From Deltaproteobacteria bacterium (GTDB taxonomy: Bacteria; Desulfobacterota; GWC2-55-46): DNA of 64,000 nucleotides. Position 1 is the first letter of the stretch. Every line of letters starts with the position of its first letter. The stretch covers positions 1 to 64,000 of the forward strand of contig JABTVA010000004.1 in NCBI GenBank assembly GCA_015075075.1, given 5' to 3'. Made by a program: the position numbers and the translations under genes. The notes under the pieces are model-generated. The model saw only the letters and a program-made list of their open reading frames with translations, was not told the origin of the DNA and did no database searches. Of the stretch, positions 32,180-37,789 are shown one piece after another.

Positions 32180-32225
32180 GGCAGCCAGGGAGTTTTGTTC
32201 TAAAGAGCAACTGTGTTCGGTGTCA

Positions 32226-32393
32226 AGCAGGGTGCGCTATGCGCACCATTACAGATCCCCCTTTGTCCCCCTTTAGAAAAGGGGGAATCTATTGGACCGC
32301 ATCTGTATGTCATTCCAAGCGAAAGTTCAGTAGGGTGCGCTATGCGCACCATTACAAATCCCTCTTTGTCCCCCTTTAAAAAGGGGGAATTTA
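32226..32393. repeat. Two direct copies of a ~65-bp palindromic unit
   Basis: Copies at 32226-32291 and 32328-32393 (103-bp period). Each has a perfect palindrome GGTGCGC-TAT-GCGCACC, ATTACA and a CCCCCTTT...AAAGGGGG hairpin. The second hairpin resembles another at about 34619-34643. It occupies the gap between two convergent genes and may act as a bidirectional barrier. Confidence 0.75.
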
Positions 32394-32454
32394 ACTTTAT
32401 GCCGACCCGGAATCCTTACGGGACCTCTGCCGGATGGAATGACTTCGGGGATTG

Positions 32455-34257
32455 TCATTCCAGGTAGACGACCCTGTTCCGGCCCGATGATTTTGCCTGG
32501 AAAAGCGCCCTGTCCGCCCTGCCCAGGAATTCGGCAACCGGTTCTTTTTGCATCCGGATCGCCACCCCTGCGCTCGCCGTGACCTTCAGGCCTTCCAGCT
32601 GCCCCTCAAAGGCGAGCCCCGCGAGCTTCCTCCGTATCTTCTCGGCCACGATGACGCACTCTGCAGGCGTGTTGCCCATGAGGAACACGGCAAACTCTTC
32701 GCCGCCGTAGCGGACGGCTATGTCGCTCGCCCTTATGGAGCCGAGCATGGCCGAGGCCGCCTGCCTTATGGCCTCGTCCCCGGCCGCATGGCCGTGCCCT
32801 TCGTTAATGTCCTTGAAATGGTCGAGGTCGAAGAGGACGACCGATATGGCGTATTGACCGTTCCGGTCGTGGGCGTGCGCGAGCCTCTTGAGGGTCTCGT
32901 CCATATAGAAACGGGTGTAGAGCCCGGTAAGGGGGTCTTTTATCGACTGCTCGTAGAACTTGCACCTCTCGGCTTCGAGCATGCGGTAGAAGGCCTCGCG
33001 CTCGACCGCTATGGCGAAGGAGCCGCTCATCTCGCCTAACATGCGGTCAAGGTCCCTGTCCTCCCTCACGTCGTGGGCAAGGCGTATGACTGCCATTGCC
33101 CCGGCCCTGCCGCCCTCGCGCGGGAAAAGAGGTATGACGAGGGCCCATTCCCTGACCCCTGCCTTGAGCTCCGGGAGCGCCGCAGGGATGAGCATCTTCC
33201 TGTAACTGCCGCCGTTTTCTACGGCCCACGCGCCCCTTTCAACGCCCAGAACGCCTTTGAGCGCAGCCGGGGGCTCCTCAATGGCCCCCCTGTAGCGCGT
33301 CCCGGGCGAGAGGCAAAGGGGCTCGCCGTTGCCTGTCTTCGCATAGAACTCTATCGAGACCGCCGGGAGCGTCCTCTTTAATATGTCAAGGAGGGCGTTT
33401 GCGATGTCGCGGAAGTCGCGGTAGACGATGACGGTATTGGTGATGTCCTTCAGGGTCTTATTGAGGAACGATAGGCGGCGTATGTCGGTTGAGTCGCCCG
33501 CAAGGGCGAATATGCCGCATTCGAGCTGCTTGAGCCTCCCTATGACGAAGCTTATGAGCCCGCCGTATAAAATGGAGCCGTGCTGCGGCGCTATCATCCT
33601 GACCGGGAGTTCTTCGAGCTTCAAGAGGCCGTGAAGCAGTATCTCCCGGCTCGGCATGTAGTGCTCGTGGAAGGGGCGTATGTCCTCGAAGTACGACTCG
33701 TCCCTGGCGACGAGGCTCCACTCCCGCGTCATGCCGCCGAAGATGTCGCTTGAGAAGAGTATGCCGCTCTCGACGTCGTAGGTGCAGAAGGCCCCCGGGA
33801 AATGGAGGTAGGGCGTAAAGACGAATAGGAGGAGCCTGCCGTCAAGGTCGAGCTGCCAGCCGCTCTCCTCGATGTCGATAATGGGTAGCCTTAGCGCGTA
33901 GTGCTTAATCAGGGCCCGCGCCCGCCAGTGCGTGACGATAGCCGCCTCCGGGTGCAGGCCCGGGATTTCCTCGATTAGCTTGAGGGATGCCGTTATGTCA
34001 GGGTCCTGGTGGTGGCAGATGAAATAACGGATGCTGGAGAAGGGGACTACCTCCTCGACCTTTTTCCTCACGCTTTCGAAGGTAAGGTGGCCGCCGGGGT
34101 CTATGAGGACGGAGTTATTCCCGCGCTCTATGAGGTAGGCGTTGCACTGGAAGATGTCGTCAGGCAAATATTGCCCGACCCACCATACGCGCTCGCCTAT
34201 TTCCACGGCGCGGCTTGTGTCAGCGGAGATTATCTTCCGTATGTCGATGTCGGCCAT
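32455..34257 (-). CDS. Flavodiiron-like (ODP) sensor fused to a diguanylate cyclase
   Basis: 600 residues. Residues 1-255: metallo-beta-lactamase-fold diiron domain of flavodiiron proteins without the flavodoxin part. Ligand motifs: HHQDPDI (family HxExDH, with the last His replaced by Ile and Glu by Asp), PYLHFPGAFCTYD, FSSDIFGG and APQHGSI. Residues about 265-425: GAF-like region ending in a helix. Residues 435-600: GGDEF domain with GGEEF active site and an RxxD inhibitory site five residues before it. Family knowledge: such diiron domains bind O2 or NO. Inference: O2/NO or iron state tunes c-di-GMP synthesis. No signal peptide, so cytoplasmic. Monocistronic. Confidence 0.88.
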   Translation of the reverse strand: MADIDIRKIISADTSRAVEIGERVWWVGQYLPDDIFQCNAYLIERGNNSVLIDPGGHLTFESVRKKVEEVVPFSSIRYFICHHQDPDITASLKLIEEIPGLHPEAAIVTHWRARALIKHYALRLPIIDIEESGWQLDLDGRLLLFVFTPYLHFPGAFCTYDVESGILFSSDIFGGMTREWSLVARDESYFEDIRPFHEHYMPSREILLHGLLKLEELPVRMIAPQHGSILYGGLISFVIGRLKQLECGIFALAGDSTDIRRLSFLNKTLKDITNTVIVYRDFRDIANALLDILKRTLPAVSIEFYAKTGNGEPLCLSPGTRYRGAIEEPPAALKGVLGVERGAWAVENGGSYRKMLIPAALPELKAGVREWALVIPLFPREGGRAGAMAVIRLAHDVREDRDLDRMLGEMSGSFAIAVEREAFYRMLEAERCKFYEQSIKDPLTGLYTRFYMDETLKRLAHAHDRNGQYAISVVLFDLDHFKDINEGHGHAAGDEAIRQAASAMLGSIRASDIAVRYGGEEFAVFLMGNTPAECVIVAEKIRRKLAGLAFEGQLEGLKVTASAGVAIRMQKEPVAEFLGRADRALFQAKSSGRNRVVYLE

Positions 34258-34792
34258 AAGGGGCTGTAAGAGAATCGAAAAAGAGTAAAGGAACCTCTGG
34301 TTAATTCATGTGTTCGTCATTGCGAGCGGAGTGAAGCAATCTCATCTTCCGGAAAATGAAGCGCCTTGAGATTGCTTCGGAGCCAAAAGCTCCTAAGCAA
34401 TGACAACGGAAAAGATAATGAATCAGGCATTCCTAAGGTGTCTCGGGATGAGTCTCGAAGATGGGGGTGCCGGAGGATGCGTTTCGAAGCTGTGTCATGT
34501 AGAACGAGGCCCCTCGCTCCGCTCAGGGTAAACTCCGGAAGGATCCCGGCGCGGACTACAGCCGCGCCCTCGGAATGACAGGCGCATGGAACCGCGGCTA
34601 CAGGCCGGGCCGTCCAAAAGACTCCCCCTTTTCCAAAGGGGGCAGGGGGGATTATCAGGATGCGATGACTTTCTCCCTTTCATAAGGGAGACGGCCGGAG
34701 GCGATTGCCGGAATTGCCTGGATTAGTCGCGCCGGTTTCAGGTAGATTCTTGCACAAGAGGGGAAATCTGTCAAACGGGGGAAAGGCAAGGT
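34258..34792. other. Intergenic region, 535 bp, repeat-rich
   Basis: Contains family-B repeat copy 3 (34289-34434), a CTCGCTCCGCTCAGGG fragment near 34509 that looks like part of another dispersed repeat, and a CCCCCTTTTCC-AAAGGGGG hairpin (about 34619). The two flanking genes both read minus, so promoter activity for 34257 must lie in the left part. No gene seen. Confidence 0.5.
34289..34434. repeat. Palindromic intergenic repeat, family B, copy 3
   Basis: Starts GGAACCTCTGGTTAATTC and ends AATGAATCAGGCATTCC; inner GTCATTGCGAGCGGAG and its mirror. A third nested arm (GGAGCCAAAAGCTCC) is unique to this copy. Confidence 0.75.
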
Positions 34793-37789
34793 TCAGGCGC
34801 CCTGCTCCACGACCGCGATCTCCTCTGGTGTCAAGCCGTAGAGCCCGTAGACGAGGGAGTCTATCTGCCTGTCCGCCGCGCCTATCTGGCGCTCGATAAG
34901 CTCCCTGTCGTGCGGGGTCTTTGCCTTCTTAAGCTTCTCATTCAGGTCGAGCAGGCGCTTGGCAAGGGAGATGATTTCGGAATGGACGGACTTCTCCTTA
35001 GGTTCCTTTTGGTCGATGGCGCGGATGGGAATTTTTTCAACATCCTGCCGTATCCAGCGGAGCCGCCCGCCCTTATCGGCGTCGCCAAGGACAGAGGAGT
35101 TCCTTTTAAAATACGCGAATATCAGCTTCGAGTTAAGGAGCCCCAACAGATACAAATCATTCAGAGGAATGATATATCCGGTATTGGCCACATAGAGCGA
35201 ATTTGCATCAAAAGAAAACCGGCTTGATTTTGCAATGTCCGGAAAGACTATCTTCGGCTTTTCGAATTCCGGATAGTAGTCGCACGCGCGAAGCTCCCAC
35301 CAGAACTCACCCTTGTCATGGCGCTTGGATGCGGCTGCATTAAATGGCTTCAAATGCTCTGCTATGGCCGGGTAACGCTTGCAGAGCCATTGCCATGCAT
35401 CACCTTCCCTTGCATGGCCGGAGCGTGCCCGCGTCCATCCCCTCGGCATCAGTATAAGGCTCTTCTCCTTCGAATTAACGCAATACTTCCTTATGTCGTC
35501 TCCCACGACAAAGGGCTTAATAAGCTCCGCGCTCTTCCTGTCTTCCTTTACGAGCCTGTCCCTTATATCCCGGTCTATGACAAAGGCCTCGTTAAGCCCG
35601 GTCAGGACTCCCCTATATATCTCGCCGCCGATATACCGGCCCAAAGGCACGCCGAGCTTTTTCATCTTCTCGAAGACCGCTATCTCATCCTTCCCGGCAA
35701 GGGTCCAGTTCTCACCCGAGAGAGACCTGTTGTCAAGCCCTTCCCCGATGTCCCTCACCTCCTCTTCGAGGGACTTGAAGTCGAGCCGCTTCACGGGCGC
35801 ATAGATGAAGCGCTGCTTTTTGGAGGGTGAGTTTTCAGTGAGGATTATCGCGGGGAATGTGGCCGCGTCCTGGAAGACGGGCAGCTCCCCGAAGTCCACA
35901 ATCTTCCGTATTCTCGATTTTCCGGCCAGAAAGCCGCGGATCGGTTTCCCGTAGTTTGAGCGCATGAACTTGTTTGAGCAGATGAAGCCGAAAAGCCCGT
36001 CGTTTCTTAAAAGCCTGTGCGACTGCTCGATGAAATAGACATAGAGGTCTGCGACCCCGTGGTATGCGGAGTACTGCCGCTCGAAATAGGGCTTGAACTC
36101 CCCGAGCATCTCCTGGCGCACATACGGCGGGTTCCCAATGACGACATCGAAGCCGCCATCTTTCATAATCCTGCCGAAGCCCCGCTTGTCGTCGTTCCAG
36201 TCGAAGACGTTTATCCTCCGGGCGTCCCCGCCGTCGAGGAGGTCCATCTGGCTGTAGAAGTCCGGGCCGATGAGGGAGTTGCCGCACTTTATGTTCTCGT
36301 CGATATTTGGGAGCGCCCGTTCATTAAAGAGCGAGAGGTTCTTTTTGACGGTCTCCTGGTTTTCGCCTTCGAGCACCTTTAATAGCAGGCTCAGTTTCGT
36401 AACCTCCACGGCCTGCCTGTCTATGTCCACGCCGAAAATGTTGTTGAGAAGGATGCGTTTCCTCTCGCCGGTCGAGAGCCGCCAGCCGCCCCTGCCCTGA
36501 AAGACGGCGGGCGTCTTGCCCCTTGCGTATTTCTCCGGGTCGTTCTTCGCGTACCATTCCGTGTGCCAGTCGAGGAGATACTGGTACGCGCCTATGAGGA
36601 ACGAGCCCGAGCCGCACGCCGGGTCGAGCACCTTTAGCTTCGAGGCCTGGGCCGGGGTCTTGCCTTCGAGCGCCCTGCCGAGCGTCTCTTTCACGATGTA
36701 ATCCACTATGTATCCGGGGGTATAGAAGACGCCCCCGGCCTTCTTGACCTCGGGCTTCTCCTCTACCTTTGCCTGGTGCCCGGCCGTTAAGCGGATTACC
36801 TTGCCCAGGAACTGCTCGTAGACGTTCCCGAGAATGTCCGCCCCTATGACCGAGAATTCATAGGGCGATTTCGGCGGGTATAGGTCGTCTATTATGTTCT
36901 TTAATACCCTGTCGTCTATCTGGAGGGTCTCGCTCAAGCTGTCGGCCTTGAAATCGAAGAGGCCGGAGTTGTACTTGTCGGCGGCCGCGTAAAAATGCCC
37001 GAGGAGGCGCGAGTATATGTTCGCGCCGTTCAGCATGGCCTGGAGCCTGCCGTAGTCCTCTATGCCCCTGTCCTCGCAGATGCGGAGGAATATGACGCGG
37101 TCTATGGTGTGCTGGACAGCGAAGTTGAGCTCGTCCGTGTCCAGGCCCATGTTCCTTATTGCCATGTACCGGGCAAGCTCGTCCCGCCACGCGTCTATGA
37201 GGCCCAGGAAGGCGCTGTCAACCTCGGCGGTGCCCTTCTTGAGCTTCGCGGATTCGACGTACCTGTCGAAGCTCCCCTTGAGGACCGCCTCCCTGGAGAA
37301 CCTGTCGTATATCTCGTCGAACTTCTCAAGGTATTCCGTATAAGAATAGAGGGCGACCCGCCCCGCCGAGGCCTTGTCCTTCTCGTTGGGCCGGATCCTG
37401 CAGTCATAGACGGCGAGCTCCTCGAAGTCGGTTAAAATCGAGAGCGGGAGCTTGGCGCTCCAGGCGTATCTACGGAGCTGGTAGGCGGGGTTTATGTCGC
37501 TCTTTATGTTCACGGCGGGCTTCTTGGCCTCGAGGAAGAACTTCCTCTGCCCGCCTATCCTGAAGGAGTAGTCCGGGGCCCTAAGGAAGCCGCCCACCTT
37601 GACCGTGTCCTCGTGGACGACGTCTTTATATTGCTCCGCATAGTCCTTTTCGTTACGGATGTCCCAGCCGAGCGCGTGGAAAAAGGGGTCTATGAACTCC
37701 ACCCGCACGCGTGTTTCGAGGTAGGACTCGCTCTTGTAGACGTCCTCGTTCTGCCTGAACCGCTCGAGCTGACTGTCTCTTTCCGGCAC
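34793..37789 (-). CDS. Type IIG restriction-modification protein (nuclease plus N6-adenine methyltransferase)
   Basis: 998 residues in one chain. N-terminal nuclease of PD-(D/E)xK type: PD at 72-73, E87-A-K89 (FFLEAKKP). Helical linker to about 340. N6-methyltransferase: motif I DPACGSGSFL near residue 385 and motif IV NPPY near 551. The last 300 residues form the target-recognition region and end in a coiled-coil-like stretch (LAKRLLDLNEKLKKA). Such proteins cut and modify the same asymmetric site and need no partner subunit. All motifs are intact. There are no defence genes beside it, so it is a solitary system. The target site cannot be predicted. Confidence 0.9.
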   Translation of the reverse strand: MPERDSQLERFRQNEDVYKSESYLETRVRVEFIDPFFHALGWDIRNEKDYAEQYKDVVHEDTVKVGGFLRAPDYSFRIGGQRKFFLEAKKPAVNIKSDINPAYQLRRYAWSAKLPLSILTDFEELAVYDCRIRPNEKDKASAGRVALYSYTEYLEKFDEIYDRFSREAVLKGSFDRYVESAKLKKGTAEVDSAFLGLIDAWRDELARYMAIRNMGLDTDELNFAVQHTIDRVIFLRICEDRGIEDYGRLQAMLNGANIYSRLLGHFYAAADKYNSGLFDFKADSLSETLQIDDRVLKNIIDDLYPPKSPYEFSVIGADILGNVYEQFLGKVIRLTAGHQAKVEEKPEVKKAGGVFYTPGYIVDYIVKETLGRALEGKTPAQASKLKVLDPACGSGSFLIGAYQYLLDWHTEWYAKNDPEKYARGKTPAVFQGRGGWRLSTGERKRILLNNIFGVDIDRQAVEVTKLSLLLKVLEGENQETVKKNLSLFNERALPNIDENIKCGNSLIGPDFYSQMDLLDGGDARRINVFDWNDDKRGFGRIMKDGGFDVVIGNPPYVRQEMLGEFKPYFERQYSAYHGVADLYVYFIEQSHRLLRNDGLFGFICSNKFMRSNYGKPIRGFLAGKSRIRKIVDFGELPVFQDAATFPAIILTENSPSKKQRFIYAPVKRLDFKSLEEEVRDIGEGLDNRSLSGENWTLAGKDEIAVFEKMKKLGVPLGRYIGGEIYRGVLTGLNEAFVIDRDIRDRLVKEDRKSAELIKPFVVGDDIRKYCVNSKEKSLILMPRGWTRARSGHAREGDAWQWLCKRYPAIAEHLKPFNAAASKRHDKGEFWWELRACDYYPEFEKPKIVFPDIAKSSRFSFDANSLYVANTGYIIPLNDLYLLGLLNSKLIFAYFKRNSSVLGDADKGGRLRWIRQDVEKIPIRAIDQKEPKEKSVHSEIISLAKRLLDLNEKLKKAKTPHDRELIERQIGAADRQIDSLVYGLYGLTPEEIAVVEQGA

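Follow-up and report, generated by a model that had tools for sequence, protein, structure and literature searches.

ODP domains of known structure (PF19583; 6qwo and 6qrq from T. maritima, 6r9n and 6qnm from T. denticola) have in common with the protein analysed here the domain itself, the ligand series HxDPD[VIL]...H...D...QH, and the absence of a flavodoxin domain. An earlier, sequence-only reading of this DNA had remarked that ODP-type sensors are known for chemotaxis. The characterised ODP works with a chemoreceptor (accessible portions of PMC7666581 and PMC7319448) and is a separate protein, whereas the ODP described here is joined through a GAF domain to a GGDEF domain. The available part of PMC7319448 credits Muok et al. 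2019 with reporting ODPs that share operons with signal transduction domains, as well as ODPs fused to such domains. Class A flavodiiron proteins share the metallo-β-lactamase core fold of our N-terminal domain but differ from the fusion in having the motif HxExDH, a Ser or Gly before the last His ligand, and a flavodoxin domain. Hemerythrin is a helical diiron fold unrelated to ODP. The hemerythrin-GGDEF protein Bhr-DGC of Vibrio cholerae resembles the fusion in placing a non-haem diiron domain N-terminal to GGDEF but has a two-domain layout with no ODP or GAF part; its cyclase is redox-dependent, with a rate of 0.77 per min in its more active form and of 0.073 per min when diferric (PMC9388753, in the sections accessible). 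The GAF-GGDEF cyclases DcsBis (4zmu) and the bacteriophytochrome cyclase (5llw) show the same sensor-helix-GGDEF arrangement as the fusion, with a Foldseek match that extends beyond GGDEF, but are without an ODP domain.

The gene lies in the window, the whole stretch of 64,000 nucleotides that was analysed. Its frame opens with an ATG at 34257 and ends at 32455 on the minus strand, encoding 600 residues with no internal stops, and these are exactly the coordinates given in the sequence-only reading. Orthologues from three congeners are likewise 600 residues long with an identical start (95, 94, and 85% identity), and comparison with four relatives gave a dN/dS of 0.08-0.17 for the fusion gene. 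We therefore regard 32455-34257 as a genuine gene and not a chance open frame; the ODP-GAF-GGDEF protein is real and well conserved. A full-length match was found in 7 of the 30 genomes of the family search, the window's own genome counted. The gene is not universal: in the congener G025, given as 100% complete, the N-terminal 290 residues found no match at an E-value of 1e-12. The full protein had no match among plasmid records at 1e-60. Our best reading, to which we assign a probability of roughly 0.6, is a diguanylate cyclase gated by a diiron ODP, in which O2 or oxidation would switch c-di-GMP synthesis. The features on which it draws are the following.

32455-34257, minus strand: ODP-GAF-GGDEF protein, 600 residues plus stop (open reading frame, Pfam, orthologues)
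33487-34221, minus strand: ODP domain of metallo-β-lactamase fold, residues 13-257, Pfam 36-227 (VIA-align to 6qwo_A, Pfam)
33994-34011, minus strand: ligand motif H83-Q-D85-P-D87-I88, of the ODP type HxDPD[VIL] (alignment)
33928-33930, minus strand: H110, a signature of cyclase-fused ODPs
33802-33804, minus strand: ligand H152 (alignment)
33745-33747, minus strand: ligand D171 (alignment)
33661-33663, minus strand: H199, a signature of cyclase-fused ODPs
33580-33585, minus strand: Q225-H226, the ODP-specific Gln (proposed replacement ligand) and the last His ligand (alignment, PMC7785958)
32974-33495, minus strand: GAF-fold middle domain with flanking helices, residues 255-428 (separate model, GAF structural matches)
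32941-33057, minus strand: signalling helix of fixed length into the cyclase, residues 401-439 (model helix)
32473-32940, minus strand: GGDEF diguanylate cyclase domain, residues 440-595 (Pfam, NCBIfam, structure)
32722-32733, minus strand: I-site RASD, residues 509-512 (alignment)
32692-32706, minus strand: active site GGEEF, residues 518-522 (alignment)

The ODP-GAF-GGDEF fusion is widespread in bacteria and not a one-off. Scanning a genome collection confirmed 351 related loci, and because only the closest 80 were retained we make no claim about frequency. Among these best 80, 77 encode ODP-GAF-GGDEF proteins of usable length, two run off contigs (L135 and L141), and one carries a class III cyclase (L133); the latter three were left out of alignment A4, which comprises the 77 loci and the window, and ODP and GGDEF matches are both present in all 78 of its proteins. 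The taxa represented in the best 80 of 351 include Chromatiaceae, Competibacteraceae, Magnetococcales, Rhodospirillales, Mariprofundus, Nitrospirota, and sulfate-reducer-type bacteria, with Thiocapsa marina, Marichromatium gracile, Allochromatium palmeri, and Roseospira navarrensis as cultured carriers. In L133 (5887-8346, Magnetococcales) a class III adenylate/guanylate cyclase domain takes the place of GGDEF after the ODP and middle region, and an ODP-GAF input coupled to this other output is as expected of a sensor module. A quick tree grouped the fused rows together, except for a very long flavodiiron branch that fell among them, which is taken as an artefact of long branches meeting. We considered the long N-terminal extensions of L107, L116, L121, and L148 as domains and rejected them; by eye they resemble the open frames that high-GC DNA tends to contain. 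The ODP-GGDEF proteins of L138 (titled Anaerolineae) and L147 (titled Alphaproteobacteria) are nearly identical, pointing to recent transfer or misbinning. ODPs of about 350-410 residues with a C-terminal extension were also seen (L045, L047, L071-L074, L078, and L088); no Pfam family covers the extension of L045, the one ODP of this kind that was scanned.

ODP is the top-scoring Pfam family for the protein, matching residues 36-227 at 5e-60 over the full profile (1-194) with 203.1 bits, far over the curated cut-off of 27.2. Pfam places GGDEF at residues 440-595 (E-value 2.5e-37); the GGDEF profiles PF00990 and TIGR00254 gave 128.5 and 143.2 bits, the generic diguanylate cyclase domain model of NCBIfam scored above its cut-off, and many cyclase structures match this part. 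The full-length AlphaFold model has a mean pLDDT of 85.7 and a pTM of 0.47. At such a pTM the positions of the domains relative to one another cannot be relied on, and we therefore used the single domains and ignored their arrangement. The top VIA-align match of the N-terminal domain model was the T. maritima Zn-ODP 6qwo_A (Z 30.0, 241 residues aligned, rmsd 2.6); the peroxy-diiron ODP 6r9n_A (Z 28.6, 227 aligned, rmsd 2.5) and the flavodiiron protein 1e5d_A (Z 28.5, 227 aligned, rmsd 2.0) matched as well. Comparison of this domain with flavodiiron structures, which the sequence-only reading had put forward as a check, returned the same fold with a higher score for an ODP, and the description "flavodiiron-like module without flavodoxin" holds, as Pfam detects the metallo-β-lactamase-fold ODP and no flavodoxin. 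Since the flavodiiron Z-score is nearly as high, the fold cannot separate the two families, and the choice between them rests on the ligand motif and the absent flavodoxin. The nearest solved sequence relatives of the domain are ODPs (6qrq/6qwo and 6qnm/6r9n).

Given the shared fold, the protein could be pictured as an oxidase of the flavodiiron kind that is regulated by its GGDEF part. A Pfam scan of the 600-residue protein, however, found neither a flavodoxin nor a rubredoxin domain, so that without flavodoxin a reductase would have no built-in electron donor, and the ligands are of ODP type; we consider such an oxidase extremely improbable. Nor is the fused ODP substituting for the flavodiiron enzyme, because the genome encodes a separate, true flavodiiron protein (L002).

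Modelled alone, the middle domain reached a pLDDT of 86.8 and a pTM of 0.84. Its best GAF match was 3cit_B (Z 13.1, rmsd 3.3, 138 aligned), and most of its structural matches, among those listed, are chains with GAF domains. The name "GAF-like" that it had been given from sequence is therefore borne out by fold, though Pfam finds no match in this protein; GAF_2 appears at E-values up to 0.01 in 2 of the 78 A4 proteins, and a profile of the domain found no relative among solved sequences at E-values up to 0.01.

The sequence-only reading held that all ligand motifs were kept except HxExDH, which read HxDxDI through the loss of one His. Residues 83-88 do read HQDPDI, but this is not a single change, as Glu to Asp at position 85 differs too. 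The remaining ligand positions H152, D171, and H226 are present as claimed; D171 corresponds to the bridging ligand of flavodiiron proteins. Our alignment comprised 137 ODP-domain rows, 119 of them ODPs and 18 flavodiiron proteins, drawn from the window, its own genome, relatives, and the genome scan. The rows are related and four proteins are present twice (L007/L093, L008/L091, L009/L090, and L010/L092), so the row counts are not independent events; the scan patterns did not include I88, D171, Q225, H226, H199, or the cyclase residues, but did include H83, D87, and H152, so that among the scan loci the conservation of these three is partly a product of the search. At positions 83, 85, 87, 88, 152, 171, 225, and 226, the 18 flavodiiron rows uniformly show H-E-D-H-H-D-(S or G)-H, and 118 of the 119 ODP rows show H-D-D-(I, V or L)-H-D-Q-H. 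Position 88 is Ile, Val, or Leu in every ODP row and His in none, and the Gln before the last His occurs in 118 of 119 ODP rows versus none of the 18 flavodiiron rows. His88 and Gln225 are found together in 0 of 137 rows, and a single row, L042, has neither. The ODPs of T. maritima and T. denticola (6qrq/6qwo, 6qnm/6r9n) read HQDPDV at the same place, with QH also present.

Judging from this alignment, the missing His is a family-wide ODP signature coupled to the Gln, and normal for an ODP. We accordingly rejected the idea that lacking this His sets the protein apart: all 119 ODP rows and the solved ODPs are without it. The proposal that the loss opens a coordination site and shifts the preference between O2 and NO is unsupported, the change being family-wide and Gln-coupled in 118 of 119 ODP rows. 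Since the motif-5 Gln is named in the available part of PMC7785958 as standing in for that His in T. maritima ODP, the diiron site is probably re-ligated by Gln rather than simply opened. The T. maritima flavodiiron variants H90A, H90N, and H90D (4dik, 4dil, 5v8s) are engineered removals of the His that ODPs naturally lack, but with no compensating Gln, the corresponding sequence there being LPGHG. The His90 variants (PDB 4dik, 4dil) are said to keep the diiron site, with O2 and NO reductase activities little changed.

The same residues bear on whether the protein senses NO, with NO at the diferrous site controlling the cyclase. The close fold match to flavodiiron proteins, and the reduction of NO by these relatives (PMC6033852, accessible portion), would favour this, but the ligand set is ODP-type and not flavodiiron-type in 118 of 119 rows, and characterised ODPs sense O2 according to the parts of PMC7666581 and PMC7319448 available; we find an NO sensor improbable. 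A second question is whether the metallo-β-lactamase fold is only structural or dimerising, in which case the GAF domain or some unknown partner would carry the signal. Small-molecule binding is common among GAF domains, and one ODP-GGDEF relative, L042 (G044), has lost D85, D171, and Q225 (HQGPDI, SSN, and APGHG; ligand row H-G-D-I-H-N-G-H) and retains GGEEF, so the metal site is not kept in every fused relative. On the other hand, the metal ligands are invariant in all 78 A4 proteins, the ODP part has the lowest dN/dS within the protein in 4 of 4 comparisons, and the GAF part is less conserved, with a mean column identity of 42% versus 55% for the whole protein. These data make a purely structural role very unlikely.

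On the output side, the GGEEF active site (518-522) and the RxxD feedback site (RASD, 509-512) are intact, as the sequence-only reading had stated, and R509, D512, G518, G519, and E521 are conserved in 78 of 78 proteins of A4. The GGDEF output is predicted to be active. The connector from H226 to R280 is 55 residues long in 75 of 78 proteins and that from E421 to D441 is 21 residues in all 78, while the middle domain between them (R280-E421) varies from 124 to 157 residues (n=78). The constancy of the connectors around a variable domain suggests a helix-based signal path.

For the diiron-gated cyclase that we favour, we envisage the following mechanism. By analogy with known families, the protein would be a soluble homodimeric diguanylate cyclase controlled by an ODP-type centre whose two irons would be held by H83, D85, D87, H152, D171, H226, and probably Q225. 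Binding of O2 to the diferrous site, again as in known families, or oxidation of the site, would alter the ODP fold, and this change would travel via the GAF domain and the fixed-length helix to the GGDEF pair, switching c-di-GMP synthesis. We infer that cyclase activity is O2-dependent; our guess, by analogy with Bhr-DGC, is that the enzyme would be more active when reduced. Alternatively, the ODP domain might report iron supply or cellular redox, through occupancy or the diferrous versus diferric state, and not O2 binding itself. The accessible part of PMC7319448 presents ODPs as sensors of both oxygen and iron, but the T. denticola ODP is called an oxygen sensor in that of PMC7666581, and sequence does not separate iron or redox sensing from O2 sensing; we regard this alternative as unlikely. 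From the original proposal of a diiron O2/NO sensor fused to a diguanylate cyclase with c-di-GMP output, the ODP-type diiron sensor, the GAF-like linker, the predicted-active GGDEF domain, and likely gas or redox control stand, and the lost-His hypothesis falls.

The fusion gene is adjoined at its 3' end by a glycogen-debranching-type gene and at its 5' end by an Eco57I-type restriction-modification gene. Both neighbours are retained nearby in UBA5799 (L093) but not in L090. As the flanks differ between genera they offer no operon clue, and a functional operon partner was rejected, the neighbours being unrelated in kind. The restriction-modification protein (34793-37789, minus strand) is a single chain that begins like HSDR_N and includes a TaqI_C specificity domain. 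Repeated-looking, palindrome-rich elements were seen by eye in the intergenic sequence on both sides of the gene (32205-32400 and 34310-34680). The c-di-GMP system of the same genome comprises 8 GGDEF, 3 EAL, and 14 PilZ matches, and there are 12 chemoreceptor-domain matches. At G000:C37:23377-24011 an EAL domain is split across two open frames beside a GGDEF, perhaps by a frameshift or sequencing error.

Cyclase-fused ODPs carry residues of their own. All 92 fused rows contain W134 and H199, both of which are missing from every one of the 27 unfused ODPs, and H110 occurs in 91 of the 92 fused and 1 of the 27 unfused rows; these tallies take L065, whose frame breaks at 339 residues, as fused by assumption and count L064 as GGDEF although its motif reads GGEEI. 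From their distribution, H110, W134, and H199 are candidate second-sphere or relay residues. We found no paper on an ODP or flavodiiron diguanylate cyclase in the accessible portions of the open-licence literature; PMC8846402, on sensory perception in c-di-GMP signalling, makes no mention of ODP or flavodiiron proteins, and the texts of PMC10653840 and PMC12889525 contain nothing on ODP.

Recognising the missing His as family-wide and Gln-coupled removes a false lead. The fusion points to a family, large, conserved, and apparently unstudied, in which a diiron O2 centre would be coupled directly to c-di-GMP within a single soluble polypeptide. Such a protein is simpler to assay than the chain of ODP, receptor, and CheA, and it is testable because cultured species carry it. 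More tentatively, it is possible that cyclase-fused ODPs form a class of their own, as yet undescribed, among non-haem gas sensors for c-di-GMP, in which H110, W134, and H199 may tune or relay the state of the diiron centre, and which microaerophilic, magnetotactic, and purple sulfur bacteria may use to match sessile or motile life to the oxic-anoxic boundary.
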